Source: Arthrobacter sp. PAMC25564 (lineage in GTDB: Bacteria > Actinomycetota > Actinomycetes > Actinomycetales > Micrococcaceae). Taken from it: a DNA stretch of 64,000 bases. The notes below the pieces were generated by a model. That model saw only the letters and a program-made list of their open reading frames with translations, had not been told where the DNA came from and ran no database searches. The stretch spans positions 2,108,001 through 2,172,000 of the forward strand of contig NZ_CP039290.1 of the NCBI RefSeq assembly GCF_004798705.1, read 5' to 3'. Positions 1,972 through 18,196 of the stretch are shown piece by piece. Numbering within the stretch: position 1 is the first letter of the stretch; the number at the start of each line of letters is the position of its first letter. The position numbers were made by a program, and so were the translations under genes.

Positions 1972-2043
1972 GAGGACAACCTACCTGCACACCCGCCCAC
2001 AGGATCAGTACCAAGGCAGAAGTAGAGAAACCACCTGACGGGT

Positions 2044-2073
2044 TGTCTCGAAAAGCAACAGCTTTCTAAGACA
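2044..2073. other. 30-bp res-like palindrome left of the outer transposon
   Basis: The 30-bp imperfect palindrome has the outer arms TGTCTCGAAAAGC and GCTTTCTAAGACA. It matches, in length and in its TGTCT...AGACA arms, the palindrome at 13169-13198 beside the outer resolvase region. The form fits a serine-resolvase crossover site. The outer transposon begins 41 bp to its right. Binding by a resolvase is inferred. Confidence 0.5.
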
Positions 2074-2099
2074 CTGATCTATGGTCAAATGAGCCGGCC

Positions 2100-2114
2100 G
2101 TGTTGTCATTTTCC
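2100..2114. repeat. 15-bp direct repeat, left flank of outer transposon
   Basis: GTGTTGTCATTTTCC abuts the left terminal inverted repeat. An exact copy abuts the right terminal inverted repeat at 18182-18196. The boundaries were set independently by aligning the transposon ends, so the coincidence is strong. It is longer than the short target duplication usual for this transposon family, so its origin as a simple target duplication is uncertain. Confidence 0.7.
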
Positions 2115-2164
2115 TGTAATTCTCCGCGGTATTTGGCGTGTATTTCGCGGCGTTATATGGCGCG
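2115..2164. repeat. Left terminal inverted repeat of outer transposon
   Basis: The 50 bp align without gaps to the right end read from 18181 (35 of 50 identical). A GGCG motif sits at bases 21-24 and further TTTGGCG/TATGGCG half-sites sit inside, as expected for a series of transposase-binding sites. The same register is seen at the ends of the inner element. The stop of the AAA helper gene lies just inside. Confidence 0.7.
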
Positions 2165-2165
2165 G

Positions 2166-3072
2166 TCAGGTGCCGATGAGCAGGGTTTCGCGGGCTGCTT
2201 CTACGACTTCCTTGGTGATGCTGTTGAGCTGGTTGATGTCGCGGATGCGCGTGATTTGGGTGAAGAGGCGCTGGATGAGCCGGAAGTTGCCGTTGGTGAT
2301 TCGGGCGACAGCGGCGATGGCTTCGGCGTCGGTGAAGTCCTGGGGGTCGATACTTAGGCCGAGTTCCTGCCAGCGGTTCGTGAGGACGAAGGTGAGTTCC
2401 TCGGTGCCGAGGGTTCGGTAATGGTGGGCGAAGCCGATGCGGCTGTAGAGCTGGGGGTAGCGGGCGAGGCGTTTTTCGATGCCGGGCATGCCGATAAGGA
2501 TGACGCCCATGGTGTGGCGGTCGTAGTAGTCCCGGACTTGCTCGAGGGCCGGGGGTTTGAGCCGGTCGGCCTCGTCGATGATGAGGAAGTTCGGTCAGGC
2601 CGGATGCCCGGGAGTCGCGGTGCTCGAAGACGTCGATGTTGCCTTCCCGGGCGTATTCGGCTGCCCAGGAGATTCTTTGGCAGATCCGGGGTAGTTGCCG
2701 GTCGATCTCTCGGGGGCTGATGGTCACGGTGGGGGTCCAGAATGCTGTTCTGGCTTCGATCACGCAGGCAGGGACGGGCTCGGTGTTGGTTTGACCGGTC
2801 CGCTGCCATTGTTCCCATTCGGTCGCGCCGGCGTAGGCGCGTGCGGAGAGGGTTTTACCGACGCCGGGCGGTCCGTAGCAGACGCCGATGTGGCGGTTGG
2901 TGCGTACTGCGGTGGCGAATTCGGTGAAGCGCCGGTGCTCCTTGGTGATGAGAAATGCAGGCGTGTCGGGCGGGACCGGTGGCGGGGCGGCGGAAATCTC
3001 GCCGAGATTGTTGAAGAGGAAGCGGCGTCCGTCGTCATTCTCATCCTTGGCGGTCATGGGCGTTCCTCTCAT
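2166..3072 (-). pseudogene. TniB/TnpB-like AAA+ transposition helper, frameshifted
   Basis: This is the ATP-binding helper of a Tn552/Tn402-type transposase. The first frame (from 3072, or more likely the ATG at 3057 with GAGAGGAA upstream) encodes the conserved ITKEHRRFTEFATAV start and Walker A GPPGVGKT. It loses frame near 2590-2600, after the residues RASGLTEL. The Walker B stretch FLIIDEAD and everything down to the stop at 2166 (including MGVILIGMPGIEKRL) are in another frame. The spacing needs one base removed or two added to restore the protein. The intact homologue at 11489-12301 reads straight through this point. It follows the transposase gene by a few bases in one operon. A programmed shift is possible but no slippery sequence stands out. 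Confidence 0.85.
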
Positions 3073-3075
3073 GGG

Positions 3076-4527
3076 TCAGTCTTCGGCGTAGGTGCGGAGC
3101 CGGTGCTGTTTGGGATCCGCGGATTGCCCGCCGGTTTCTGCAGGTTCGGCGGGTGCCGGCGGCGCGTAGCGGTCGTCGGCGGGGAGGGCATCGGCGAGGC
3201 TGAGTTTGGTGCGCAGCTGTTTCTTCAGTTCGTTCCGGCGTGCTGATCTGGCCGCCTTGAGCTGCTTGAAGGTGACAGAACCGGCGGCGAGTTCCGGGGC
3301 GATGGCGCGGCAGAGGAACGTGTCCTGGTGCCAGACGCGGATCTCGGCCATGTCCCGGGGGTCGTAGCGGATGGTGACGGTCTCGCCGACGTAGGCGGAG
3401 AGTGTGAGGTCCAGGTAGCGCAGGCCGTTGAAGTGGATGCCGTCGCGGTGGACGATGCGCTGGTGTGCGACGGTCAGGAGCAGGAGGTCAAGGTCCTCGG
3501 GTCGGACGGGCATTCTGGGGATCCAGCCGCCGGCCTGCCAGCGTGCGGCGGGGACCTCTCCGGTTTCGGAGTGCGTGCGTTGGTTGTATTCGTCAACGAT
3601 GAACTGCTCGAGCGCGGCGTCGAGCTGCTCGAGGGTCATCGTCGGTGCCGTCACCGGCGTCCCGCGGGTGCCGTGCGGGATGAAACCGGGCAGATGCGGC
3701 AGGAGTTCGTCGGTGATGGTGCGGTAGAACCGCTCTATCTTTCCGCGGCCCTGCGGCACGCCTGGGAGGGAATGGATGAGGCGGATGTGGGTGTCTAGGC
3801 AGACCCGTTCAAGGTGGGTGCTGGTGAAATCTGCGCCGTGATCGCTGTAGAGGAGATCGGGCAGACCCATGACGGGCCAGGCCGGATGCTTCTTGCGCTG
3901 CACGGCCTGGTGAAGGGCCAGTGCCGTCTGGAGCGCGGTCGGCGCACCGGTGAAGACGGTGTAGCCGGCGATGGCGCGGGAGTAGTCATCGAGTACGACG
4001 GTCAGCCACGGGCGTGCGCGGGCGCCGGCGGCGTCGACGATCTCGATGTCCAGCTCGGTGTGGTCGCACTGCCATTGCTCGTTCGCGCGGCTGGCTGTGC
4101 GCCGGTAGACCAGCTCGAACCGGTCCCGGTACGCGGCGTCGCCTTCGAGGGCGATGGTGCGCAGTCCGGGATCGATGGCGGAAACGATCGCCCGGACCGT
4201 CGAGTAGCCGGGGGCCGGGATGCCGCGGTCGATCGCGACGTCACAGATCCGCCGGTGGATGAACGCGATAGTCGGCGCCGGCCGGCGGAGCGCGAGGCCT
4301 TCGATCGCACCCACGATTTCGGGCGGGAGCGAATGGCTCCCGCGGTCCGAGCGTGGCTGGCGGCCAAGGTCCGCGACCGAGCCGCCGGCGCGGAATCCTG
4401 CCGTCCACCGTTGCAGGGTGCGGAGGGGGATGCCGGCCTGGCCGGAGATCCTGGCGAGGGGAACACCGTCATCGAGGTGCTGCCGGAGCAGTGCCGCCCG
4501 GTCGTCGGCCGACAGCCGATGCTTCAT
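3076..4527 (-). CDS. DDE transposase of Tn552/TniA type (rve core, Mu-like C-terminus)
   Basis: The 483-aa protein catalyses DNA strand transfer of the outer transposon. An N-terminal helix-turn-helix (residues about 15-45, GIPLRTLQRW) is followed by an integrase core with the catalytic triad visible as Asp155 (CDHTELD), Asp229 (YSDHGADF) and Glu265 (GRGKIERFY). A beta-barrel Mu-type C-terminal region follows (residues 330-420, with IVHRDGIHFNGLRY). The start ATG overlaps the resolvase stop in an ATGA, and the stop lies just before the AAA helper gene, so the three form one operon. The sequence is intact, unlike the homologous gene of the inner element. Confidence 0.9.
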   Translation of the reverse strand: MKHRLSADDRAALLRQHLDDGVPLARISGQAGIPLRTLQRWTAGFRAGGSVADLGRQPRSDRGSHSLPPEIVGAIEGLALRRPAPTIAFIHRRICDVAIDRGIPAPGYSTVRAIVSAIDPGLRTIALEGDAAYRDRFELVYRRTASRANEQWQCDHTELDIEIVDAAGARARPWLTVVLDDYSRAIAGYTVFTGAPTALQTALALHQAVQRKKHPAWPVMGLPDLLYSDHGADFTSTHLERVCLDTHIRLIHSLPGVPQGRGKIERFYRTITDELLPHLPGFIPHGTRGTPVTAPTMTLEQLDAALEQFIVDEYNQRTHSETGEVPAARWQAGGWIPRMPVRPEDLDLLLLTVAHQRIVHRDGIHFNGLRYLDLTLSAYVGETVTIRYDPRDMAEIRVWHQDTFLCRAIAPELAAGSVTFKQLKAARSARRNELKKQLRTKLSLADALPADDRYAPPAPAEPAETGGQSADPKQHRLRTYAED

Positions 4528-5111
4528 GACCGGCGGTCTTCGGCCGCCTGCCGGTGGCGGTAGAGCGTCGCGCGGCTCCAGCCGACGAGCCGGGCCGCGT
4601 CCTCAGCGGTGCGTCCCTTCGAGCGGGCGTCCGACGCGATCGCGAGCTTGTCGGCGATGACGAGCGGGTCGGACAAGGGTCGGCCGAAGCGGGTTCCGCC
4701 CTGCCGAGCCGCGGCGATGCCCGCGTTCACGCGTTCGACGATCAACTCCCGCTCATACTCGGCAAGGGTCGCGAGCATGTTGAGCATCAGGCGGCCCGAC
4801 GTTGTTGTGGGGTCAATGCCGTCCGAAATGGACCTCAGGAGCACACCGCGCTCCCGCAGCAGGTTCACCGTGTTCAACACATCGATCAAGGACCGGCCGA
4901 GCCGGTCCACCCGCCACACGACGACGGTGTCACCCGGCTCAACATACGCGAGGAGCTTTTTCATCCCGGGCCGCTCAATAGCGGCCTTGCTCCCGGAAGT
5001 GACGTCGGCGAACACATCGCGTTTCTGAACCCCGGCATCGACCAGTGCATCGAGCTGCAACTTCGCGTCCTGGCCCGACGTACTCACGCGCGTATACCCG
5101 AGATGTCTCAC
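4524..5111 (-). CDS. Serine resolvase of the outer transposon
   Basis: This 195-aa small serine recombinase resolves transposition cointegrates at a res site. The start is the GTG at 5111, giving VRHLGYTRVSTSGQ with the nucleophile Ser10. The catalytic domain shows VVWRVDRLGRS and LATLAEYERELIVERV, and a C-terminal helix-turn-helix (AARLVGWSRATLYRHR) ends the protein. The frame continues upstream only through non-homologous sequence. The gene leads the operon resolvase, transposase, AAA helper. About 115 bp upstream the inner transposon has inserted, moving the likely res palindrome away to 13169-13198. Confidence 0.9.
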   Translation of the reverse strand: MRHLGYTRVSTSGQDAKLQLDALVDAGVQKRDVFADVTSGSKAAIERPGMKKLLAYVEPGDTVVVWRVDRLGRSLIDVLNTVNLLRERGVLLRSISDGIDPTTTSGRLMLNMLATLAEYERELIVERVNAGIAAARQGGTRFGRPLSDPLVIADKLAIASDARSKGRTAEDAARLVGWSRATLYRHRQAAEDRRS

Positions 5112-5226
5112 CCGGCCATTGTGCCTCAGAAACCCCCGGACGGCACCCGCCTGAGACGATCCACGGTGAGACACCTTTACAAGACACAGGGCGGCCCGGC
5201 AGGACGCCGATTCCTTCGACCCTCCC

Positions 5227-5280
5227 TGTGACTGTTCGTTCGGAATGGCGGTTTTTTCACAGCTCGGTTTGGCGGTTTGG
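5227..5280. repeat. Left terminal inverted repeat of inner transposon (CCTCCC at 5221-5226)
   Basis: The end starts TGTGACTGTT and holds two transposase-site-like blocks, AATGGCGGTT (5244-5253) and CGGTTTGGCGGT (5265-5276). The GGCG of the first block falls at bases 21-24, as in the other ends of this family in the window. Confidence 0.85.
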
Positions 5281-5397
5281 CTGGGGCTGAACGGCGAGGG
5301 TGGAGCGGGCTGGTTCGAGAGGTTTCCTCGAGTATTGGGAGTGGAATGGGGTATGTTCGCCGGAGAGCGGTAGTACCGCGTGAACGAGGGGGATCGT

Positions 5398-6543
5398 ATG
5401 CCGGAGCCCGGTGTCGAGGTTGTATGGGGCGCTCTGGAGCGGGCCTTACGGAAGGCCGGGCACGACGAGCTGTGGCTCCAGTTCCGACCCCGCGGTTCGA
5501 AGGATGTCTTTGACGCGGTCCAAGCCGCGGTCCAAGTTGCCAACCAGGAGGTCGAGGACGCCGGGTGGGGCGATGAAGTGTTCACCGAGGGAGTCTCGGA
5601 CTCCGACGCCGGACCGGTGGCGCTGATGAGCAGGGTGGGCACCGAGGAGGGCGTGCGCGCCTGGTTTGCTGTCTTCGCCCGGCATTTACAGGCCCTGGGG
5701 CTGTCCGGGAAGGTCACCGCCGCGCCGACGGCGTTTTTCCCGGACTGGCTGAGCGGCGAAGTCCGGCTGCCGAGGCAGCTTACGGCCTTTGTTTCCTACC
5801 AGACCAACGATCTGGCTCTGCTGGATGCAGACGAAGAGCGGCGTGCCTGGCATGTCCCGGCCGCACTGACGGCGAAGGTGGCCGATGCCGCCACGGCGTG
5901 GGGCCGCTTCAACGGCGCGGATGTGTACCTGCAGCGCTACATTCACCAGACCCGATCGAAGAACCCGGACGTGGGGTCTGCCCTGGCGGGCGCGGCCGCG
6001 AAATTCGCCATGGCTCGTGTGACCTACCTGCGGTCTCAGCCCCGCCGGCTGGCCTGGGCGTCGCTGGGCACCCTGGGCCGGACCTGTTACGGGGTCATGG
6101 ACGACACGGTGTCCTGGCAGGTCCGGCTGGCCCAGGTCACCCGGGCCATGGCCGCGTTCCCCGCGGACACCGATCTGGCGTTCGTGCAGTACAGCAATCC
6201 CCTCACCAGTAGTTGGCAGGCACTTTCCACCGCCAGGCCAGCGCCGCCCTACGTGAAGGAAAGCGACATCCGCTACAACAGGCACCTGAATAAGCAGTAC
6301 ATCCCTGACGCGCACGGGCTGCAGCTCCTCACCGACGCACACCTGGCAAACGCGAACAATCTCTCCGACTGGATCATCGAGCCTCTCGGCGAAGGAAAGC
6401 ACCTCGTGCAGGCCAAAGACCTGGAGTCCTGGTACGCCACCATCGACCCGGACCCCGAAACACTGGCAAAGGCGCGCGCCGACTTCGGAGGCATGATCCT
6501 GACCCCGGAGATCATCGCGGCCAACCCGCCACCCTGGCGCTGA
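5398..6543 (+). CDS. Hypothetical protein, first of a tandem paralogous pair
   Basis: I do not recognise this 381-aa protein. The ATG at 5398 follows a GGGGGA Shine-Dalgarno run, and the second copy begins in identical context. It has no signal peptide or membrane segment and ends in a proline-rich NPPPWR tail. The copies share clear conserved blocks: ELWLQFRPRGSKD near residue 25, AFFPDWLSG, NKQYIPDAHGLQLLTDAHL, LSDWIIEPLGEGKHLVQAKDLE and WYATIDPDPETLAKARADFGGMILTPEIIA. The conserved C-terminal half suggests the functional core. The gene is cargo of the inner transposon, transcribed toward the resolvase and transposase genes. Base composition is like its neighbours. Confidence 0.85.
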   Translation: MPEPGVEVVWGALERALRKAGHDELWLQFRPRGSKDVFDAVQAAVQVANQEVEDAGWGDEVFTEGVSDSDAGPVALMSRVGTEEGVRAWFAVFARHLQALGLSGKVTAAPTAFFPDWLSGEVRLPRQLTAFVSYQTNDLALLDADEERRAWHVPAALTAKVADAATAWGRFNGADVYLQRYIHQTRSKNPDVGSALAGAAAKFAMARVTYLRSQPRRLAWASLGTLGRTCYGVMDDTVSWQVRLAQVTRAMAAFPADTDLAFVQYSNPLTSSWQALSTARPAPPYVKESDIRYNRHLNKQYIPDAHGLQLLTDAHLANANNLSDWIIEPLGEGKHLVQAKDLESWYATIDPDPETLAKARADFGGMILTPEIIAANPPPWR

Positions 6544-6595
6544 CCAATGGCCACGGCTCAATATCGATAGCACCGCGTGAACGAAGGGGGATCGT

Positions 6596-7738
6596 ATGCC
6601 GGAGCCCAGTGTCGAGGTTGTGTGGGGCGCGTTGTCGAGGGCGTGGCGGAAGGCCCAGTACGAGGAACTGTGGCTGCAGTTCCGGCCCCGCGGTTCGAAG
6701 GATGCCTTTGACGCCGTCGCGGCTGCGGTCCAGGTCGCGAACCAGGAAGTCGAGGATGCCGGGTGGGGCGCCGAAGTCTTCACGGGGGGGCTCTCGGATT
6801 CCGATGCCGGACCGGTGGCGCTGATGAGCAGGGCCGGCCCCAAGGAGGGTGTGCGGGCCTGGTTTGATGCCTTCGCCCGGCATTTGCAGGTCCTGGGGAT
6901 GTCCGGGAAGGTCACGGCGGCGCCGCAGGCGTTTTTCCCGGACTGGCTGAGCGGCAAAGTCGAACTGCCCCGACAGCTCACCGCGTTCGTGGCCTACCGG
7001 ACTGATGATCTGGCGCTGCTGAATGAGCAGGAGCGCAGAAGGAGCTGGTACGTCCCGTCCGAACTGACGGCCAAGATCGCTGACGCCGGCGCGGCGTGGG
7101 GCCGCTTTGACGGTGCCGACGTCTATTTGCTGCGCAACATCCATCGGGTCCGGACGAAGAATCCGGACGTTGGGCCGCCGCTGGCGGACGGCGTGGCGAA
7201 GTTCGGACAGGCTGGTGTGACCTACCTGCGGTCCGAGCCGCGCCGGATGGTTTCGATGTCGTTGGGCACTCAGGGCCGGGCCTGCTATCAGGTCATGGAC
7301 GACACGGTGCCCTGGCCGGACCGGCTGGCCCAGGTTGTCCGGGCCCTGGTCGCGTTCCCCGGGGACACCGATCTGGCGTTCATACAGCACAGCCACGTCT
7401 ACCCCTATTGGAGCGATCTTTCCACCGGCAGGCCCCTGCTCCCCTACGTGGACGAAACCCAGATCTTCTACAACAGGCACCTGTATGCGCAGTACATTCC
7501 CGACGCGCACGGGCTGCAGCTCCTCACCGACGCCCACCTGACACACGCAAACGACCTGTCCGACTGGATCATCGAACCTCTCGGGGCAGGAAAGCACCTC
7601 GTGCAGGCCAAAGACCTGGAGCCCTGGTACGCCACCATCGACCCGGACCCGGACACACTGGCAAAGGCGCGCGCCGACTTCGGAGGAATGATCCTCACGC
7701 CCGAGATCATCGCGAACAACCCGCCGCCCTGGCGCTGA
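6596..7738 (+). CDS. Hypothetical protein, second of a tandem paralogous pair
   Basis: This 380-aa protein is closely similar to the preceding one over its whole length and has the same length, the same start context and the same NPPPWR end. The roughly 35 bp before both ATGs are nearly identical (ACCGCGTGAACGA then GGGGGATCGT), showing that the duplicated unit included the ribosome-binding region. The copies differ most around residues 140-200 and 265-290, the region one might expect to set specificity. No family is recognised. Only 52 bp separate the genes, so they probably share a transcript. Confidence 0.85.
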   Translation: MPEPSVEVVWGALSRAWRKAQYEELWLQFRPRGSKDAFDAVAAAVQVANQEVEDAGWGAEVFTGGLSDSDAGPVALMSRAGPKEGVRAWFDAFARHLQVLGMSGKVTAAPQAFFPDWLSGKVELPRQLTAFVAYRTDDLALLNEQERRRSWYVPSELTAKIADAGAAWGRFDGADVYLLRNIHRVRTKNPDVGPPLADGVAKFGQAGVTYLRSEPRRMVSMSLGTQGRACYQVMDDTVPWPDRLAQVVRALVAFPGDTDLAFIQHSHVYPYWSDLSTGRPLLPYVDETQIFYNRHLYAQYIPDAHGLQLLTDAHLTHANDLSDWIIEPLGAGKHLVQAKDLEPWYATIDPDPDTLAKARADFGGMILTPEIIANNPPPWR

Positions 7739-7976
7739 CGAATAGCCGAAGCTGCGATCCCTCAGACCTGGCTGAGGCAGCTTCAGAATCAGCGGAAGCT
7801 CGTTGGCGAGTGCCTGGTCGGGACTTTCTCGGTGTGCGGGAAACGACCGTTTCCGCTACAAACCGACAGTTACTTCCAAAAGATTCGATGCACCCCGATT
7901 TTTTGTAGCTAAACCCAGTGCCGTTTTCTATGTGCCGGTTCTTCCCCCGGTCGACGGGTATTGGTACGTTTGGCGC
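7739..7976. other. Region before the second resolvase gene, with a perfect palindrome
   Basis: No gene is seen. GGAAACG and CGTTTCC form a perfect inverted repeat at 7839-7854, a plausible part of a res site or resolvase operator for the gene that follows. The resolvase frame extends upstream through this stretch but without resemblance to the family. Confidence 0.4.
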
Positions 7977-8588
7977 ATGGGTCATCTTCTGGGCTATGCC
8001 CGTGTGTCGACCGGGGACCAAGACGCGGCCCTTCAACAGGACGCGTTGAAGGCTGCCGGCTGTTACCGCATTTTCGCCGACACGGCTTCCGGGTCCCTGG
8101 AGTCCCGTCCCGAACTGACGAAGGTCCTGGATCAGCTCCGACCCGGAGACACCTTGGTCGTGTGGCGGCTTGACCGGCTCGGCAGGTCCATCCGGCATCT
8201 GATCGACCAGCTGGCCGACCTCCAGGAGCGGGGCATCGGATTCCGTTCCCTTCAAGAAGCGATCGACACGACCTCATCGGGCGGCCGGCTGGTCTTTCAC
8301 GTTTTCGCGGCGCTGGCGGAGTTCGAACGGGACCTGATCCGGGAGCGAACGAACGCCGGTCTTCAGGCGGCCAGGGCACGAGGACGCGTCGGCGGCCGGC
8401 CTGCGCTGCTGACCAAGGACAAGCTCCGGACCGCCCGCCGGATGTATGAGCAGAAGGACATGACGGTGGCCAAGATTGGCGAGGTTCTCGGCGTCAGCCG
8501 CACCACCGTCTACCGGGCACTGCGGCGCGAACCGGCCCCTGCTGCGGGACGGCGGCAGTCAACCGCAACCAAGAAGACCGTCCGGTGA
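7977..8588 (+). CDS. Serine resolvase of the inner transposon
   Basis: The 203-aa small serine recombinase starts at the ATG at 7977 (MGHLLGYARVSTGDQ, nucleophile Ser11). It shows VVWRLDRLGRSIRHLI, FAALAEFERDLIRERT and a C-terminal helix-turn-helix (IGEVLGVSRTTVYRAL). Its stop overlaps a GTG that begins the transposase frame (GTGA), mirroring the ATGA overlap in the outer element. It would resolve cointegrates made by the inner element. Confidence 0.9.
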   Translation: MGHLLGYARVSTGDQDAALQQDALKAAGCYRIFADTASGSLESRPELTKVLDQLRPGDTLVVWRLDRLGRSIRHLIDQLADLQERGIGFRSLQEAIDTTSSGGRLVFHVFAALAEFERDLIRERTNAGLQAARARGRVGGRPALLTKDKLRTARRMYEQKDMTVAKIGEVLGVSRTTVYRALRREPAPAAGRRQSTATKKTVR

Positions 8589-8803
8589 CAGGCGGAGGCA
8601 GCACCCCGAACGGTGACGCTGCCTCCATGCCTGAACACACGGCGTTCTTGCGCTGGCAGATTTTGCGCCGGCATGTCGAAGACGGTGTGCCGTTGAAAAC
8701 CCTCGCGGCGCACGAAGGCATAGGACTTCGGACGCTTCAGCGTTGGCATGCTGCCCATAAACGTCACGGCATCAACGGGCTGGCGGCAGCGGTTACGTCC
8801 CGC
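8585..8803 (+). pseudogene. Inner DDE transposase, 5' fragment
   Basis: This is the N-terminal 73 codons of the inner transposase, with the helix-turn-helix (GVPLKTLAAHEGIGLRTLQRW) that aligns with residues 20-41 of the outer transposase. Translation may start at the GTG overlapping the resolvase stop or at the ATG at 8627. An IS256-family insertion cuts the gene after AAAVTSR. Joining the codon ending at 8803 to the codon at 10209 restores one frame of about 500 aa. Confidence 0.85.
8789..8803. repeat. 15-bp inverted repeat flanking the IS256-family insertion
   Basis: GCGGTTACGTCCCGC here is the exact reverse complement of GCGGGACGTAACCGC at 10208-10222. In the uninterrupted gene these would form a near-perfect palindrome, so the insertion appears to have landed at its centre. 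Confidence 0.8.
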
Positions 8804-10206
8804 TGAGTGGTGGAGTTTTCTCGACACCGTGCAGGTCAGTTATTTGATTATGCTGCCGTGAGTTCGGGGAGCAAAATCGCCTCCTTTATCGGCGTGGCGG
8901 GTGTCGTGTTCATGGCCTTGAGTTCGGCCATGGAGGCCTCGGAGAGGTAGCGGCGGTCGCCGGCTTCCCATTCGTCGTGTTGCTCGACGAGGACCGCGCC
9001 GGCGAGCCGGAGAAGGGCTGCCGGGTTGGGGAAGACCCCGACGACGTCGGTGCGTCTTTTGATCTCTTTGTTGACTCGTTCCATGGGATTTGTGGACCAG
9101 ATCTGGCGCCAGTGTCTGGCCGGGAACCCGGTGAACGCGAGGACGTCGTCCCGGGCGTCGCCGAGCATCGCGGCGACCTTAGGGTGGGATTTGAGGAGCA
9201 TCCGGGTGACTTCGTCGAACTGGGTGTTCACGTGTCCGGCGTCGGGCTGGGCGAAGGCGGTGCGGATGATCGAGGCGACCATGTCCTGGGATCCCTTCGG
9301 CACGGTCGAGAGCACGTTTCTCATGAAATGCACGCGGCAGCGCTGCCACGCCGCGCCCTGGAATACCGTGCCGATGGCTTTCTTCAGCCCGCTGTGGGCG
9401 TCGGAGATCACCAGCTTCACCCCGTCCAGCCCGCGGGCCTTCAACGACCGCAGGAACGCGGTCCAGAACCCCTCGTTCTCGCTGTCGCCGACGTCGAAGC
9501 CCAGGACCTCCCGCCGCCCGTCCGCGGCCACGCCGAAGGCGACCACGACTGCCTGGGACACGACGCGGTGCCCGACGCGGGCCTTGCAGTAGGTGGCGTC
9601 CAGGAACACGTACGGGTAGTCCATGGCGGAGAGGTCGCGGTCCTTCGAACGCGCCGACCTCGTGGTCCAGATCCTCGCAGATCCGGGACACTTCAGACTT
9701 GGAGATCCCCGTGCCGGCACCGAGGGCCTTGACCAGGTCATCGACCTTGCGGGTGGAGACGCCATGCAGGTAGGCCTCCATCACGACCGCGTAGAGGGCC
9801 TGATCGACGCGGCGGCGGCGTTCCAGCAGCGCCGGGAAAAACGACCCGTTCCGCAGCTTGGGGATCTTCAGGTTCAGGTCCCCGGCGGTGGTCGTCAACG
9901 TCCGGGGCCGGGACCCGTTGCGTTGGGTAGTGCGCGTCTCGGAGCGTTCGAAGGGGGCGGCGCCGATGAACGCGGTCGCCTCGGCCTCGATGAGCTGCTG
10001 GTACAGCGTTTCGGTCGCGGAGCGGATCCGGTCGGAGACATCGGTGAGTTTCAGTTGGCCAAGCAGGTCAAGCAGGGCAGACTGGTCTAGAGCCATCGTG
10101 TGTTTGTGTCTTTCTGTGAGTGACTTTGATCGGTACTCACTGACCATCGCACGATGGCTCACTACGTTGCCGGAGCAACGCGCAACTGCGGAGATCTACA
10201 CCATTC
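8804..10206 (-). mobile_element. IS256-family insertion sequence
   Basis: The roughly 1.4-kb insertion interrupts the inner transposase gene. Its ends match imperfectly in inverted orientation (GAGTGGTGGAG on the left, and GAATGGTGTAG read from the right end). Boundaries are good to a few bases. A direct target duplication of the usual 8-9 bp is not evident; only CCGC is shared. Its transposase gene is on the minus strand and is frameshifted. Confidence 0.75.
8848..10096 (-). pseudogene. IS256-family (mutator-type) transposase, +1 frameshift
   Basis: The protein would be 415 aa, a normal family length. It starts MALDQSALLDLLGQL at 10096. The first frame runs to ICEDLDHEVGAF. The second resumes with DRDLSAMDYPYVFLDATYCKARVG and carries the DDE residues in DATYCK, ISDAHSG and NPMERVNKEIKRR. 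One extra C near 9646 (TTCGAAGGAC where TTCAAGGAC is expected on the coding strand) explains the shift. The enzyme is therefore probably dead. Confidence 0.9.
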
Positions 10207-10208
10207 CG

Positions 10209-11492
10209 CGGGACGTAACCGCGGCAGCAAAACGCCCGACCGCTCAGCGCAGGACCGACCCTGAACTGGTTGCGCTCATTGAGGGTCTGGCCCTGGTGAA
10301 ACCTGCCCTTCCGGTGGCCCTTATCGCCCGCAAGACCAACCGGGTCGCTGCCGGTCACGGATGGCGAGCCCCTTCGTACAGCACCGTCCGGTCCATCACC
10401 GCCGGCCTTGATCCCGGCATGAGAACGCTCGCCCAGCAGGGAACGGCCGCATACCGGGACACCTATGAACTGGTATGGCGGCACCGCGCCGAGCGGCCGA
10501 ATGCGATCTGGCAGGCAGACCACACCGAACTGGACATCCTCGTGCTGGACGCCAACCTGAAACCGGCCCGTCCTTGGCTCACCACGATCCTGGACGACTA
10601 CTCCCGCGCGATCTGCGGCTACACGATCTTCCTCGGGGCACCGTCGGCCATGAACACGGCCCTGGCGCTGCGGCAGGCCATCTGGCCCAAGGCCGGGGCT
10701 GGTTGGCCGATGTGCGGGATCCCTGACGTCCTTTACGTTGACCACGGATCTGACTTCACGAGCAGCCACCTGACCCAGACCGCGAAGGACCTTCACTTCG
10801 AAATCACCTACTCCACGGTCGCGAGGCCCCAGGGGCGGGGCAAGATCGAACGGTTTTACGGCACCGTAAATACGGAGCTGCTGGCCGAACTGCCCGGGCA
10901 CCTGATCCGCGGCCACACCCAGCCGCCACCGGCAATGACCTTGAAGGAACTCGATAAAGCCGTTGGCCGCTTCATCACGGAGGACTACCACCAGCGCGAG
11001 CACCCGGAGATCAAGGCGACCCCGCACCATGCCTGGACCGGCGACGGCTGGCTGCCCAGGCTGCCGGCGTCGATGGATGAACTCAACTTGCTTCTGCTGA
11101 CCGTGGCCAAACCCCGGATCGTCCACCGTGACGGCGTGCACTTCCAAGGACTCCGGTACGTCTCACCCCTGTTGGCCGCCTACGTTCGCGAACCCGTCAC
11201 CGTGCGCTACGACCCGCGGGACATCACCGAAATCCGGGTCTTCCACAAGAACCAGTTCATCTGCCGGGCCGTGGACCCTGACCACGAGACCTCAACGATC
11301 ACCCTCAAGGACATCCAGGCCGCACGATCGGCCCGCCGCCGCGAACTTCGCGGACAAATCAACCAGCGTATCGCCGTGGTCGCCAGGCATCTGCCTGACC
11401 TGGCACCCGTCAGACAGGGCCCGGCCCCCGAGGCGACGGAGCGGCCAGAGAAGCGTCCAAAGCTCCGCACCTATCTGGAGGACGACCGATGA
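10209..11492 (+). pseudogene. Inner DDE transposase, 3' fragment
   Basis: This fragment holds the catalytic and C-terminal parts of the inner transposase: ADHTELD, YVDHGSDF and GRGKIERFY supply the Asp-Asp-Glu triad, and IVHRDGVHFQGLRY marks the Mu-type C-terminal region. It is homologous to residues about 60-483 of the outer transposase. The frame is open upstream into the insertion sequence, so a fusion ORF exists from 9858, but the true gene is broken by the insertion. Its stop overlaps the AAA helper start (ATGA). Confidence 0.85.
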
Positions 11493-12301
11493 CAGGGCAA
11501 GGCTTCATCGCCACGAAGGAACACCGCAGATTCGTCGAGTTCGCCGACGCGGTGCGCCGGCAGCACACCATCGGGATCTGCTACGGTCAAGCCGGCATAG
11601 GCAAGACCCTCTCCGCCAGACGCTACGCCAACTGGCACAAGGCGCAGAAGCTCCTGGAGGAGTGGGGACCGCGGGAGGATTCCGACCACCTCGTCTATGC
11701 CGCACTCTCCCGCTCCCGAACCGTCTTCTACACCCCCGCCGTGCTCACTACACCCAAACAGATCCACGCCGACCTCGAGCACATCAGCACCCGCGTCTCG
11801 ATCTGCGTGGACCAGCATCTGGAGAAGATCGGCAAGAAGACCGGCTGCCCCGCCGGTATGAGCAAGCATGTGGAGCTGCTCATCATTGACGAATCCGAGC
11901 GGCTCAGCGCCACCGCCCTGGAACTATTGCGCGACCGCTACGACCGCGACAACTTAGCCCTGATCCTCATCGGCATGCCCGGCATCGAAAAATGGTTCAG
12001 CCGCTACCCCCAGCTCTACAGCAGGGTCGGATTCGCCCATGAATACCGTCCCCTCGAACAAGAAGAACTGCATTTCGTCCTGCAGCGCCGCTGGCACAAA
12101 CTCGGACACGCCCTGGACCCCGAAGACTTCACCGACGCTCAGGCCATTGCCGCGGTCGCCCGCATAACCAGGGGAAACTTCCGCCTCATCGACCGGCTCT
12201 TCACCCAGATCGACCGCGTGATGAAAATCAACGAGCTCAACATCATCACCGACGACGTCATCGAAGCCGCACGTTCAACACTTGTCATCGGCATCAGCTA
12301 A
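11489..12301 (+). CDS. TniB/TnpB-like AAA+ transposition helper, intact
   Basis: This 270-aa ATPase would activate the transposase and help choose targets. Walker A is GQAGIGKT (residues 33-40) and Walker B is LIIDE (131-135), followed by ILIGMPGIEKWFSRYPQLYSRVGF, typical of TniB/IstB-like proteins. The start overlaps the transposase stop in an ATGA. It is the only intact AAA helper in the pile-up and could serve both elements. An ACCGCCAAACCG motif like those in the terminal repeats overlaps its stop (12301-12312). Confidence 0.9.
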   Translation: MTGQGFIATKEHRRFVEFADAVRRQHTIGICYGQAGIGKTLSARRYANWHKAQKLLEEWGPREDSDHLVYAALSRSRTVFYTPAVLTTPKQIHADLEHISTRVSICVDQHLEKIGKKTGCPAGMSKHVELLIIDESERLSATALELLRDRYDRDNLALILIGMPGIEKWFSRYPQLYSRVGFAHEYRPLEQEELHFVLQRRWHKLGHALDPEDFTDAQAIAAVARITRGNFRLIDRLFTQIDRVMKINELNIITDDVIEAARSTLVIGIS

Positions 12302-12410
12302 CCGCCAAACCGCACCGGCATGCGCAGTACCGGCACCTGGTCCACCTCGAAGACGGACACGAGATCCGGAAACGTCAGAACCCAATTACTCATCCGACAA
12401 GCGGGGCGAT

Positions 12411-13040
12411 GTGGTAACCATTGGATATGTCAGGGTCAGCACTGCAGAGCAGACTGCCGAGCTTCAAACATCCGCGCTGAAGGAAGCCGGCTGTGACCGG
12501 ATTTTCGCAGATCATGATGTGAACGGCACACGGGCCGGCAGAGACGAGCTGGACAACATACTTGACCACTTGCGCCCCGGGGACGAGTTGGTGATCTGGA
12601 AGCTGGACCGGTTGGCTCGCTCCACGAAAAAGCTGCTCCCGTTCATCGAACTCCTGGACGCGAAGGGCGTGACATTCCGCTCCCTGACCGAGGGCATCAC
12701 CACCACTGGCCCAAACGGCAAGGCCATGCTGACGATCCTGACCGCTCTGGCACGGCTCGAACGTGACACGACAACCGAGCGGACCAAGGCAGGCATGGCC
12801 TTCGCGGCAGCCCATGGGCGCCACGGCGGACGACCTGCCATCACAGCGGAAAACGCGGCCGTGAAACGCGCCCACGAACTCAAAGCATCAGGGCTCAAAC
12901 CCGCCGACATCGGTAAGAAAATCGGGCTCAGCCGGGCGACAATCTACCGCTGCCTGAACATCGGACGCGACGAACAGGCCTCACCGCAGCTGAATTCACC
13001 ACCCCAATCTGAAGTCGATGCCGAGCAACGATTTCATTGA
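12411..13040 (+). CDS. Serine resolvase/invertase, third copy
   Basis: The 209-aa small serine recombinase starts at GTG 12411 (VVTIGYVRVSTAEQ, nucleophile Ser10). It shows VIWKLDRLARSTKKLLPFI, LTALARLERDTTTERTKAGM and a helix-turn-helix (DIGKKIGLSRATIYRCL). An extended in-frame N-terminus from 12282 shows no homology. It lies between the AAA helper gene and the right terminal repeat of the inner element, which already has a resolvase gene. It may be a captured gene or part of another remnant. Confidence 0.85.
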   Translation: MVTIGYVRVSTAEQTAELQTSALKEAGCDRIFADHDVNGTRAGRDELDNILDHLRPGDELVIWKLDRLARSTKKLLPFIELLDAKGVTFRSLTEGITTTGPNGKAMLTILTALARLERDTTTERTKAGMAFAAAHGRHGGRPAITAENAAVKRAHELKASGLKPADIGKKIGLSRATIYRCLNIGRDEQASPQLNSPPQSEVDAEQRFH

Positions 13041-13094
13041 CTGGCCAGGCCGACGACTCGAGCTTCGACCGTCCTAATGACGCCAATCGAACCT

Positions 13095-13148
13095 CGAAAC
13101 CGCCATCTTGAACTGCGATTTAACCGCCATTCTGCGCTAACAGTCACA
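13095..13148. repeat. Right terminal inverted repeat of inner transposon (CCTCCC at 13149-13154)
   Basis: Read leftward from 13148 the end is TGTGACTGTT, then two blocks with ATGGCGGTT (complement at 13122-13131 and about 13097-13107), in the same register as the left end. CCTCCC follows directly, repeating 5221-5226. Confidence 0.85.
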
Positions 13149-13168
13149 CCTCCCCGACACGAAGTCCG

Positions 13169-13198
13169 TGTCTCGAAAAACTGTTGGTTTTTGAGACA
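13169..13198. other. Probable res crossover site of the outer transposon
   Basis: The 30-bp near-perfect palindrome has arms TGTCTCGAAAAAC and GTTTTTGAGACA around TGTTG. A second palindrome, GACACG...CGTGTC (13157-13173), overlaps its left edge. Before the inner element inserted, this site lay about 135 bp upstream of the outer resolvase gene, the expected place for res. Resolvase binding is inferred. Confidence 0.55.
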
Positions 13199-13324
13199 AG
13201 GTATTGGCGCATCTCACGTGCAGGTCAGTGAGGCAAGCCGTGCACTCCGTCTTCTGTAAGGGCGGGGCTTTCGCCGGCAAGTAGCAGTCGGTTCTGAAAC
13301 TCTGCATGGAGGTAGCTGCGGTGC

Positions 13325-13795
13325 TCATGATTCCTGTTCGAGTTCTGCCAGTCGGGCCCGCACCTGGTCGCCGAGCCCGCAGATCAAGTCGAGCTGCTCC
13401 GGGGTGAGGTGGTCGATCAGAACCTTGCGCACGTCCATCACGTGCGGCGCGGCGGCAGCCTCGATGACCTCGCGACCTTGCGGTGTGATGACCACGACGG
13501 CGCCGCGCTGGTCCGCCGCGCAGCGTTCACGGCCCACGAGACCGCGCTTTTCCATCCGGGTCAGATGCTGCGAGAGCCGGCTCTTCTCCCAGCGCAGAAC
13601 GTCGCCTAGCGCAAACGCCCGCAGCCGCCCGTCCGGCGCCTCCGACAGGTGGGCCAGCACCTCGTAATCGGCGCTCGACAGACCGCTGCGCTGGCGCAGC
13701 TGCCGCTCGATGTACTGGGACAGATCGGCCTGCATCGTCATCAGGCTGCGCCAGGCACGCTGCTCCCGGTCGTCCAGCCAACGTTGATCACTCAT
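13325..13795 (-). CDS. MarR-family transcriptional regulator
   Basis: This 156-aa winged-helix regulator starts at ATG 13795 (MSDQRWLDDREQRAW). The DNA-binding domain is clear: LSSADYEVLAHLSEAPDGRLRAFALGDVLRWEKSRLSQHLTRMEKRGLVGRERCAADQRGAVVVITPQG. It is divergent from the DoxX gene, with a promoter and a palindrome between them (13813-13832), so it probably controls itself and the oxidoreductase genes to its right. The inducer is unknown; the cargo suggests a quinone, flavin-reactive or thiol-reactive compound. It belongs to the cargo of the outer transposon. Confidence 0.85.
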   Translation of the reverse strand: MSDQRWLDDREQRAWRSLMTMQADLSQYIERQLRQRSGLSSADYEVLAHLSEAPDGRLRAFALGDVLRWEKSRLSQHLTRMEKRGLVGRERCAADQRGAVVVITPQGREVIEAAAAPHVMDVRKVLIDHLTPEQLDLICGLGDQVRARLAELEQES

Positions 13796-13812
13796 ATCTG
13801 TCACGTTACCCC

Positions 13813-13856
13813 ATGGTTGACATGTTAACCATTCAACGCCTACGATTTGGTTAACA
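13813..13856 (+). promoter_or_regulatory. Promoter and MarR operator before the DoxX gene
   Basis: TTGACA (13817-13822) and TACGAT (13841-13846), 18 bp apart, resemble a housekeeping promoter reading right. The inverted repeat ATGGTT...AACCAT (13813-13832) overlaps the -35 region, and a further GGTTAACA half-site follows at 13849. This layout fits repression by the divergent MarR protein. Binding is inferred. Confidence 0.6.
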
Positions 13857-13880
13857 CATAAACTACCTGGAGGTTTTGCC

Positions 13881-14252
13881 GTGACCATCACAGCCATCGT
13901 TCTCAGCGCTCTGCTGGCCCTCGCCGCACTGGGCGCGGGCATCCCGAAGATCAGGCTCAAGGGCGATATCCCGCGCCAACTGCAGGAACACATGGGCGCC
14001 AGCGCCTCCCTCACCCGGTTCATCGGCCTGGCCGAGGCCGCCGCGGCGATCGGACTGGCGGTCGGAGTCTTCTGGCACCCGCTCGGTATCGCGGCCGCTG
14101 CCGGCCTGGCCGTCGTGTTCGCCGGAGCGATCGCCTACCACCGCCGCGCCGGCGACTACGCCAACCCCAAGACCCGGGGCCCGGCGATGGCCCCGGCCGT
14201 CCTGGGCCTGGTCTCCGTGGCAACCGTGGCCGCCTTGTCCCTGACTGCATAA
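13881..14252 (+). CDS. DoxX-family small membrane protein
   Basis: The 123-aa protein starts at GTG 13881 after GGAGG. It has four hydrophobic segments (about residues 2-18, 44-62, 68-85 and 102-120) with the family motif around GAGIPKIRLKGD. DoxX/DoxD-like proteins are membrane partners of redox enzymes and of thiol or quinone metabolism, but the exact role of this branch is unknown. It is the first gene of the right-facing oxidoreductase array in the outer transposon. Confidence 0.75.
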   Translation: MTITAIVLSALLALAALGAGIPKIRLKGDIPRQLQEHMGASASLTRFIGLAEAAAAIGLAVGVFWHPLGIAAAAGLAVVFAGAIAYHRRAGDYANPKTRGPAMAPAVLGLVSVATVAALSLTA

Positions 14253-14416
14253 GCCACGCGCCCAGCCGAACCCGCGCCTGTCGCAGGCGCAGGTTGCCAG
14301 GCCGGGAGGCAGATCGCTCCGCCGCCCGGCCCGCCCCGCTCCACACAGAGCCCCTCACCCTGAACCAGCACCGTCCGCCCGGACGCGTGCCTCACCAAGC
14401 AGCACCAGGAGACGCC

Positions 14417-14986
14417 ATGTCAATCCACATCCTTGCCCTCGTCGGTTCCGTACGCGCCGGATCACACAACGGCCAGCTCGCCCAGGCCGCCGCCAAGCTC
14501 ACGCCTGAGGGAGTCGAGCTGTCCATACAGGAAAACCTGGATCAGGTGCCCTTCTATAACGAGGACCTCGACAGCGAGGGGAGCATCCCGCAGCACGCCG
14601 CAGCGCTTCGGGAGTCCGCCGCGCGTGCCGATGCCCTCCTGCTCTTCGTCCCCGAGTACAACGGCACCATGTCCGCCGTTCTGAAGAACGCCATCGACTG
14701 GCTCTCCCGCCCCTACGGAGCCGGCGCCCTCTCCGGAAAGCCCGTCGCCGTCATCGGCGCCTCGGGCGGCCAGTACGGCGGCGTCTGGGCACACCAAGAT
14801 GCCCGGAAGGCAGCAACAGCTGCGCAGGCCAACGTGCTTGAGGACATCACCCTCTCCATTCCCGACTCGCTGACACGGTTCGCCGACACCCACCCGCTCG
14901 ACGACAGCGAGATCGCCACCGAACTCAAGTCCGTCGTCGTCCGCCTTGCCCAGGCGGCCGAACGCGCTACCGCAGCGCACGTCTGA
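14417..14986 (+). CDS. NADPH-dependent FMN reductase family protein
   Basis: This 189-aa flavodoxin-fold reductase starts at ATG 14417 after AGGAGA. LVGSVRAGSHNGQLA near the N-terminus is the phosphate-binding loop, and LLFVPEYNGTMSAVLKNAIDWLSRP and VAVIGASGGQYGG are the usual FMN-site motifs. It probably reduces flavin or quinones with NAD(P)H, and could feed reduced flavin to the LLM oxidoreductase at 16892. The frame upstream of the ATG is not conserved. Confidence 0.85.
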   Translation: MSIHILALVGSVRAGSHNGQLAQAAAKLTPEGVELSIQENLDQVPFYNEDLDSEGSIPQHAAALRESAARADALLLFVPEYNGTMSAVLKNAIDWLSRPYGAGALSGKPVAVIGASGGQYGGVWAHQDARKAATAAQANVLEDITLSIPDSLTRFADTHPLDDSEIATELKSVVVRLAQAAERATAAHV

Positions 14987-15043
14987 CCGACTCCCACCCC
15001 GTTACACAACTTCAGCTTCGACTATGAAAAGCAGGCACACATC

Positions 15044-15676
15044 ATGAGCAGCATCAGTATCATCGGTCTCGGAACCATGGCCCGAATTCTCGGCACCCGG
15101 GCGGTCGCTGCCGGCCACAGCGTCCAGGTCGTCGGCCGTGACGGTACCAAGGCCGCCGCCCTGGCCGGGGAACTCGGCGGCAACGCCACAGCAGGGACGA
15201 TCGCAAGCGTCGCGCTCACCGGTGACATCGTCATCCTGGCTGTGCCGTACGCCAGCGCCTCATCCATTGTCAGCCAGTACGGGGACGCGCTGACCGGCAA
15301 GGTCATCGTCGACATCACCAACCCCTTCGATCTCACCACGTTCACCGCGCTCGTCACCCCCGACGACAGCTCGGCCGCACAGGAGATCGCCAAGGCCGCC
15401 CCTGCGGGCGCGCATGTCGTCAAGGCGTTCAACACGCTCTTCGGCGGCGTCCTCGCGTCCGGTGAGGTCGAGGGCCGCCCCCTCGATGTGCTCATCGCCG
15501 GTGACGACGCCAACGCCAAGGCGTCCGTGTCCTCGTTCGTCGAGAGCCTCGGACTGCGCCCGCTGGACACCGGTAACCTAAAGACCGCGCACTGGTTGGA
15601 AGGAGCGGGTCTGCTGCTTCTCGGTCAGGCCCAGCGGCAGAAGAACTTCTCCCTCAGCATTAAGTTTCTCGGCTGA
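15044..15676 (+). CDS. NADP/F420-type dinucleotide-binding reductase
   Basis: The 210-aa protein has an N-terminal Rossmann fold (ISIIGLGTMARILGTRAVAAGH) and the VILAVPYAS, GKVIVDITNPF and HVVKAFNTLFG motifs of the NADPH-dependent F420 reductase-like family. Many actinobacterial members act without proven F420 use, so the substrate is open. It is the first of two such genes in this array. A strong hairpin follows at 15773. Confidence 0.75.
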   Translation: MSSISIIGLGTMARILGTRAVAAGHSVQVVGRDGTKAAALAGELGGNATAGTIASVALTGDIVILAVPYASASSIVSQYGDALTGKVIVDITNPFDLTTFTALVTPDDSSAAQEIAKAAPAGAHVVKAFNTLFGGVLASGEVEGRPLDVLIAGDDANAKASVSSFVESLGLRPLDTGNLKTAHWLEGAGLLLLGQAQRQKNFSLSIKFLG

Positions 15677-15988
15677 ACGCACGTCAAAGCGCCGCTCCCG
15701 ATCCGGATCGGCCGAGACAACAAGGGAGTAACGGGCCCGCGGGACCAGATGGACCAATCCGGCGACCGGTGCGGGGACTCGATCTCTAAGATCGAGTCCC
15801 CGCAAGCCCCACCCCTCGACCCGATGCCGCACAGGCGGCGAGTGACGCAACCGCTCACAAGGCGGGCTCCCGGCCAGGCCCCCGGCCTTCTGCGACACAG
15901 ATCACACGCTCATATGCCGACTCACCGCCCCCCGGCACGCACGGATGGCGGTGGGCCGGGCAGCCCCAACCAGCGAAGGAACAAGCCC
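15677..15988. other. Intergenic stretch between two reductase genes
   Basis: Apart from the hairpin at 15773-15801 nothing is recognised. The following gene has GAAGGA a few bases before its ATG. Confidence 0.5.
15773..15801 (+). terminator. Strong hairpin, probable terminator
   Basis: GGGGACTCGATC and GATCGAGTCCCC form a perfect 12-bp stem with a 5-nt loop. There is no clear U-run after it, which is common in high-GC actinobacteria. It could also be a processing site between the two reductase genes. Confidence 0.6.
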
Positions 15989-16588
15989 ATGAAGTTCGGA
16001 ATGGTAGGTGCGGGAACGCTCTCCCGCGCCATAGCCGGTCACGTAGTGAAGGCCGGTCACGACGTGGTCTTCAGCAACAGCCGAGGCCCCGAGACGCTCA
16101 AGGACGTTGTGGACGCCTTCGGGCCGCACGCCTCCGCCGGCACCATAGCAGAAGCGGGTGCCGCTGATTTCGTCGTCCTCGCCGTCCCCTGGACAAAGGT
16201 CCGGGAGGTGGTGGGTAACTTACCTGCCCGCGAGGGGCGGATCGTCATCGATGCCACCAACCAATGGGCGAGTCTGACCCCCACGTTTGTCGCGGACAAG
16301 CTCGACATCGGAGGCAGCGAACTCGTCGCCTCACTGATCCCCGGGGCGCACGTCATCAAGGCTTTCGACAACATGTATGGCCCCTATGTTGCCGCCGACC
16401 CCATCACCGCAGCCGGCCGCCGGATCCTTTTTTACGCGGGCGACGACCAGAACTCCAAGAAGCTCTTCCGCTCCGTCGTCGAGGGCTTCGGGTTCGCCCC
16501 CGTCGACCTCGGCCCGCTACCGATGGGCCGCCTGATGCAAGTGGACGGCGGACCCCTGACCGGCCTGCACGCCATCCGGGAGGGCTGA
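15989..16588 (+). CDS. NADP/F420-type dinucleotide-binding reductase, second copy
   Basis: The 199-aa protein starts at ATG 15989. It has MVGAGTLSRAIAGHVVKAGH at the dinucleotide site and the family motifs VVLAVPWTKVREV, RIVIDATNQW and HVIKAFDNMYG. It is a distant paralogue of the gene at 15044 rather than a recent copy. With the FMN reductase and the LLM enzyme it suggests a deazaflavin or flavin-linked reduction pathway. The longer frame upstream of 15989 is not conserved. Confidence 0.75.
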   Translation: MKFGMVGAGTLSRAIAGHVVKAGHDVVFSNSRGPETLKDVVDAFGPHASAGTIAEAGAADFVVLAVPWTKVREVVGNLPAREGRIVIDATNQWASLTPTFVADKLDIGGSELVASLIPGAHVIKAFDNMYGPYVAADPITAAGRRILFYAGDDQNSKKLFRSVVEGFGFAPVDLGPLPMGRLMQVDGGPLTGLHAIREG

Positions 16589-16602
16589 CAGCGAGTACGA
16601 CA

Positions 16603-16635
16603 CCCGCTCCGGAACGCCTCACATTCCGGAGCGGG
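16603..16635 (+). terminator. Strong hairpin after the second reductase gene
   Basis: CCCGCTCCGGAA and TTCCGGAGCGGG form a perfect 12-bp stem around a 9-nt loop, 15 bp after the stop at 16588. Confidence 0.7.
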
Positions 16636-16891
16636 TCAAGTATCTTCCGGCAGGAATTTGCCGAAATCAACCATCCCTGGGCCGGTTCCGAATTCCTTGC
16701 CCGGATTGAGGTTACTTGTTGATGCGGGTCCGCTCGCAGCCGGACTCGTCGTCCAGTTGGGCACCGCGATTTTCAACGGCAGCCGCGCGGCGGAGCAGTT
16801 GCGCTCCGCCTGGCTGCGGACCGGGAACCTGCCGCGCCTGAACTAACGCTCAAGCGACCTCACAGCACTGCACTGCAATCAGGAGAAAATC
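16636..16891 (+). other. Intergenic stretch before the LLM gene, with a doubtful short ORF
   Basis: A 62-codon frame (16658-16846) could encode a short peptide, but it has no recognised homology and no good ribosome-binding site. It may be the tail of a lost gene. The LLM gene has AGGAGA before its ATG. Confidence 0.3.
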
Positions 16892-17935: not shown

Positions 17936-18007
17936 ACCACGCACGCACACCACGCATCATTCCCCGGCTTCTCAACAGTGCCTGGCCGACGACGTCGCAA
18001 GTTCAAC

Positions 18008-18037
18008 ACCGCCAAACCGGGCTCGGAAACCGCCATT
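18008..18037. repeat. Orphan transposase-site pair resembling the inner element's end
   Basis: ACCGCCAAACCG (18008-18019) and AAACCGCCATT (18027-18037) repeat, in opposite orientation, the two blocks in the left terminal repeat of the inner element (5244-5276). No TGT/ACA terminus is found at the expected distance, so this is a decayed end or an inner binding site of the outer element. Confidence 0.5.
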
Positions 18038-18131
18038 GTGAATCTCCGCACCTCGGCTTCCTGCGGTCGTCGATGCTCGAAGTCCTATGCACGGTGAAGG
18101 ATCCGCTAACGGGACGTGGGGACTGGACTAA

Positions 18132-18181
18132 GGTGCCAAATAGCGCCGCAAGAAACGTGCCAAATAACTCTGAAAGTCACA
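18132..18181. repeat. Right terminal inverted repeat of outer transposon
   Basis: Read leftward from 18181 it begins TGTGACTTTC and carries two TATTTGGCAC blocks in the register of the left end. The 15-bp flanking repeat starts at the next base. Confidence 0.7.
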
Positions 18182-18196
18182 GTGTTGTCATTTTCC
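18182..18196. repeat. 15-bp direct repeat, right flank of outer transposon
   Basis: GTGTTGTCATTTTCC is an exact copy of 2100-2114. Confidence 0.7.

Follow-up and report, generated by a model that had tools for sequence, protein, structure and literature searches.

Two groups of bacterial transposons have been described that insert into resolution (res) sites, the DNA sites of serine resolvases. Tn552, from Staphylococcus, carries the genes p271 and p480 together with a resolvase, inserts at the res sites of sin/res resolvases, and is flanked by 6-bp repeats (PMC3276174). Transposons of the Tn5053/Tn402 family have been called res-site hunters and are also found nested in the res sites of carrier transposons (PMC7765201). 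The targets of such res hunters lie mostly within the spacer that separates box I from box II, as illustrated by In104 of SGI1, which sits in that spacer 71 bp from the resolvase gene (PMC12217951). Relatives of the DNA considered here include ISArsp9 and ISArsp14, full-length elements from Arthrobacter plasmids whose boundaries have been published and which are filed as ISNCY (PMC6305408). We analysed a stretch of 64,000 nucleotides, referred to below as the window, which comprises bases 2,108,001-2,172,000 of the 4.17-Mb single-contig genome of Arthrobacter sp. PAMC25564. Within it, a 7,922-bp Tn552-like transposon, which we call element 2 (5227..13148, + strand), interrupts another Tn552-like transposon, element 1. 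Taking all of the evidence together, we consider it quite probable that element 2 represents a Tn552-like transposon of Arthrobacter-group Actinobacteria that prefers the res sites of serine resolvases as its targets.

Element 2 resembles Tn552 in having two transposition genes of similar size, a serine resolvase, a 6-bp target duplication and a position in a res site. Several features of the Tn552 family recur in it: a transposase with rve and Mu transposase C domains, its gene (tnpA) now split by an insertion sequence (IS), adjoins an AAA ATPase of ~270 amino acids (aa); there are serine resolvases, in this case two; the duplication is 6 bp long, and 5-9 bp across the 16 elements surveyed below; and insertion is into res sites. 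But Tn552, with which we compare it by description only, has inverted repeats of ~120 bp, whereas the matching part of the ends of element 2 is ~52-54 bp long, and element 2 also differs in its cargo, its actinobacterial host and its second resolvase. With Tn5053/Tn402 it shares insertion into res, nesting in the res site of a carrier (PMC7765201) and an apparent position in the box I-II spacer, where most targets of res hunters fall (PMC12217951). That family, however, is described as having TniQ, ends of 25 bp, duplications of 5 bp and a preference in how it is oriented to the resolvase of its target. We found no match to tniQ among the scanned open reading frames (ORFs), some short ORFs having fallen outside the scan, and over 12 cases from the survey there is no fixed orientation, with the resolvase facing the right end in five and the left end in seven. 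Because the ends are shorter than those of Tn552 and the orientation rule of Tn5053/Tn402 does not hold, we file element 2 as Tn552-like only and not as a member of either family. ISArsp9 and ISArsp14 likewise have ends of the TGTGA... kind, in which TGGC is spaced as it is here, and their direct repeats are 10 and 7 bp long, but the available description, on which this comparison depends, mentions no res targeting and no second resolvase (PMC6305408). Given that these two elements had been published with such ends and direct repeats, the proposal in a preliminary description of this locus, made from the DNA alone, that element 2 is a type specimen for a branch that has been little described was overstated. 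Among solved structures, the transposase closest by sequence to that of element 1 is TnsB (PDB 7svw, 8ea3, 8rdu; 1.2e-47), although no CRISPR parts were seen here. A search of the literature, largely by titles and the opening lines of abstracts and outside ISfinder, TnCentral and most subscription journals, found neither res targeting nor an internalised second resolvase in this branch.

Insertion site of element 2

Both ends of element 2 start with TGTGACTGTT (at 5227 and 13148), align in inverted orientation with 40 of 54 bases identical, and have GGCGGTT blocks in common. When the left end was compared with 100,000 stretches drawn at random from the window, the mean was 13.5 and the maximum 28 matches out of 54, against 40 for the real right end. 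CCTCCC lies directly outside both ends (5221..5226 and 13149..13154). The preliminary description had identified a Tn552-like transposon with this 6-bp duplication, with ends alike in just these respects and with resolvase, DDE transposase (rve/Mu-C) and AAA genes, and all of this is borne out, the duplication further by an empty site in relatives. The span that it gave, 5221..13154, has the correct flanks but takes in both copies of the duplication. Its statement that the element is complete does not hold, since tnpA is interrupted by an IS256-family IS and the arrangement of the ends is chimeric compared with canonical relatives. It also made no mention of that IS, of the second resolvase, of the type-swapped ends, or of the other Tn552-like transposon to which the flanking DNA belongs.

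Judging from conserved motifs, element 2 appears to have inserted within the res site of element 1, between a putative crossover palindrome and putative accessory sites located beside the resolvase gene. The candidate accessory subsites (5100-5129 and 5151-5175, together 5100..5175, - strand) are conserved in uninterrupted relatives and adjoin the element 1 resolvase gene (4524..5111, - strand; PF00239, 4.2e-43), whose res would thus be the target. On the other side lies the likely site I, the palindrome TGTCTCGAAAAACTGTTGGTTTTTGAGACA (13169..13198, - strand), at which conservation stops, the outer flanks varying among genomes. The spacer between the conserved motifs and the palindrome contains CCTCCC, and the insertion is 14 bp from site I.

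The preliminary description had suggested a search for empty sites, and these exist in relatives. The joined flanks of element 2 match 39 of 206 genus genomes, including its own (E 1e-3 or better), many of the matches being partial. The best empty site, in genome G041, matches at 92% without a break from joined position 1 to 171, the junction falling at 126. L115 and L131, which are the window's own locus and a match on one side only, were left out of the alignment of the empty sites. Two pairs of its rows represent the same place, and 19 of 22 distinct places continue through the junction with the conserved motifs on both sides. The preliminary description had also named a case that would refute it, namely homologous genomes in which the 7.9 kb forms part of some larger conserved unit and an empty site is lacking; a larger unit does exist, but it has empty relatives. 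The targets of two related elements could be matched in the same way and show the same geometry, that of L143 being empty in G172 (82%, 9-228, junction at 160) and that of L145 in G068 (97%, 1-229, junction at 160), each in further genomes too, and these matches again stop at a palindrome. In the whole 4.17-Mb genome there are five PF00239 matches, three of them inside the nest formed by the two elements and two partial.

We propose that, by analogy with Tn5053/Tn402 and Tn552, a resolvase-bound res site would be recognised as the target. Element 2 would then insert in the spacer that separates site I of the element 1 res from its accessory sites, duplicating CCTCCC, and the resulting cointegrate would be resolved by resolvase 1, the element's own enzyme. 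Insertion of the IS256-family IS into tnpA would have come later.

Second resolvase and end types

Right-end positions were compared in a chosen set of 16 loci, and in 11 of them the right end lies 50-55 bp 3' of tnpB. In the remaining five (the window, L003, L014, L007 and L030) it lies beyond a resolvase gene, 707-852 bp from tnpB. The inner repeat AACCGCCAAACCG is still present at the former right-end place in both the window and L014; in the window it forms a relic of the canonical right end directly 3' of tnpB (12300..12312). Element 2 accordingly has two resolvase genes: resolvase 1 (7977..8588, + strand; PF00239, 1.3e-45), which from comparison with relatives is the usual one for the lineage, and resolvase 2 (12411..13040, + strand; PF00239, 1.2e-40), which is 47% identical to it. 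A different resolvase occupies the place corresponding to that of resolvase 2 in L174, L147 and L005, where it is just outside the right end. Resolvase 2 is most likely the resolvase of an earlier target that has been internalised: the original right end would have been lost, an outer end would have taken over its role, and the target resolvase would now lie inside the element.

The ends themselves also point to a composite history. The left end (5227..5280, + strand) is of the canonical right-end type by sequence, matching eight canonical right ends, chosen as references, at 46-50 of 54 bases and five chosen left ends at 33-43 of 54. The right end (13095..13148, - strand) is nearer to left ends, with 44, 34, 42, 42 and 45 of 54 matches to the same five (the value of 34 being that for the divergent left end of L189) and 36-39 to the eight canonical right ends. 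We infer that the ends were exchanged with neighbouring elements, and because the hybrid has a duplication of its own, it moved as a unit.

The swap might instead have come about through inversion of the interior by the element's own resolvases, with no capture of ends from neighbours. Such an inversion would account for a right-type left end paired with a right end nearer the left type, and element 2 does contain two resolvases. But L014, in which both the relic and the kind of right end are the same, has a left end at 4183 that by eye is of the left type. This suggests that the two swaps were separate steps, and tblastn finds no match to tnpB beside the left end of element 2. We therefore think inversion rather unlikely and favour exchange with neighbouring elements.

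Survey of related elements

Relatives were mapped for ends, duplications and resolvase genes in 71 rows, with duplicates collapsed and rows without a scored end omitted. Both ends, together with a duplication of 5-9 bp, are present in sixteen elements, counting the window; L006, whose contig runs only as far as its inverted repeats, was excluded. In seven of these 16, or six of 15 without the window, the start of a foreign resolvase gene, extrapolated from alignments, is no more than 150 bp away, and the gene is directed away from the element; the seven are the window, L003, L143, L184, L047, L145 and L058. Random positions in the same loci give an expected count of 0.10, and seven was reached in none of 1,000,000 runs. 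Four one-ended cases also fit (L174, L005, L147 and L160), as does L176 if its annotated start is used, which puts the resolvase 102 bp away; by alignment the distance is 312 bp.

An ordinary Tn552-like element inserting at random, and found near resolvases by coincidence or because the neighbourhood is rich in transposons, would be consistent with the nine elements that have no nearby resolvase and with duplication sequences that differ from one element to another. Yet the count of seven against 0.10 was obtained with control positions from those very loci, and three distinct targets lie beside a palindrome at which conservation ends, each with empty sites, so we regard random insertion as very improbable. 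Least probable of all is that the nearby resolvases are co-travelling modules of the same transposon family and not targets, as the second resolvase inside the right end in the window, L003, L014, L007 and L030 might suggest, since in other members the resolvase is outside the duplicated target, and the target regions of the window, L143 and L145 are uninterrupted in other genomes.

Several observations nevertheless weigh against a preference for res sites as we have described it. No resolvase was detected within 150 bp of nine of the 16 elements (L030, L181, L011, L008, L013, L040, L044, L031 and L154); the flanks of L011 and L013 are short. The end pairs of L154 and of L058, which is one of the seven positives, score low, as does the left end of L181, and the ends were found with a profile trained on family members already collected, with a duplication of at least 5 bp as a selection rule. 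A test of the palindrome by itself was only weakly positive: with a threshold of at least 9/11, hits came to 11 among 71 flanks and to 54 among 732 control stretches. It was run without L006, L094, L092, L183, low-scoring ends and rows below 51% transposase identity. Among the empty sites, L129 ends short of the junction, L144 and L149 share the palindrome side only, and the target of L003 yields only a 77-base spanning match at 83%. The res subsites were assigned from conservation and not from footprints, and with chimeric ends the history of element 2 is more than a single clean insertion by a canonical element.

Three further observations were made during the survey. At L005 12133-13479 a right end, a resolvase, a second right end and another resolvase follow in series, which resembles serial nesting or capture. 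Judged by eye, the right flanks of L005 and L175 are one and the same res-like sequence (CTCATAACTAATGATTAGTACG...), which two related elements have entered from opposite sides. Finally, the window's own genome has, at G000:C1:486995-487160 (L002 1500-1665), a relic of ~165 bp that resembles a miniature inverted-repeat transposable element, with inward-facing ends GTGGCTGTTGG..GGCGG and AACAGTCAC and no duplication by eye.

Gene content of element 2 and its host transposon

The IS256-family IS in tnpA is 1,430 bp long (8791..10220, - strand), has the inverted repeat GGTTACGTCCCGC and is flanked by the duplication GCGGCAGC (8783-8790 and 10221-10228). It separates a 5' part of tnpA with a helix-turn-helix domain (8627..8790, + strand; HTH_23, 4.9e-8 for 8627-8806) from a 3' part with the rve and Mu transposase C domains (10221..11492, + strand; PF00665, PF09299), which is followed by tnpB (11489..12301, + strand; PF13401), encoding the AAA ATPase of 270 aa. 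Because tnpA is split, element 2 should not move on its own; its ends are intact. The transposase of the IS lies in two frames. A second copy elsewhere in the genome is 99% identical and has its own, different 8-bp duplication, and since an alignment of the two copies over 1,433 bases shows 14 substitutions, one of them just outside the IS, and no gaps, the two-frame layout is common to both.

The two cargo genes (5404..6543 and 6596..7738, both + strand) had been described as unknown, and their family indeed remained unmatched, with zero matches in Pfam, NCBIfam and PADLOC scans and a best E of 0.13 for the family profile against solved structures. What had been overlooked is that they are tandem paralogues with 76% identity. 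The predicted model of the second has a mean pLDDT (predicted local distance difference test) of 94.3. Members of this family are ~380 aa long; the genome has three copies, the third at G000:C1:2302070-2303212, and the family is present in 7 of 206 genus genomes (E 1e-30). We considered the cargo genes as a signature of the transposon and rejected the idea, as none of eight other cargo loci has TGTGA.T plus GGCGG within the ~1.5 kb of flank scanned.

Element 1 (2115..18181, - strand) measures 16,067 bp including element 2, and its ends match at 36 of 54 bases. We rejected the TGTCTC palindromes (2044-2073 and 13169-13198) as its ends; relatives have TGTGACTTTC-type ends 3' of tnpB, and we therefore place the ends at 2115 and 18181. 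A 15-bp direct repeat, GTGTTGTCATTTTCC, flanks the element (2100-2114 and 18182-18196) and exceeds the 5-9 bp that are duplicated around the 16 surveyed elements. The ORF holding its tnpB (AAA; 2005..3072, - strand) is frameshifted, with tblastn pieces at 2588-2172 and 2955-2656, and extends beyond the element end at 2115; the frame of the 483-aa transposase (3076..4527, - strand) is intact. Passenger genes are MarR, DoxX, FMN-reductase, F420-oxidoreductase-like and luciferase-like. The palindrome at 2044-2073, TGTCTCGAAAAGCAACAGCTTTCTAAGACA, is site-I-like and lies 41 bp outside the end of element 1, which may itself have landed in a res site. At 18008-18045 there is a fragment that by eye resembles the interior of a right end of the element 2 type (ACCGCCAAACCGGG...ACCGCCA), its terminus missing.

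Implications

If our account is right, res targeting, which the sources cited above describe for Tn5053/Tn402 in Gram-negatives and for Tn552 in staphylococci, extends to a branch of transposons in soil Actinobacteria, and natural empty and filled sites are available for three resolvase systems. The finding also suggests a route by which such transposons come by second resolvases and a reason why they nest. We entertain, as a possibility short of a probable one, that this works as a ratchet, whereby elements landing in res sites repeatedly internalise the target resolvase by means of an outer end. Were this true, the branch would collect resolvases, mix end types and build nested, chimeric transposons that are still mobile as units.

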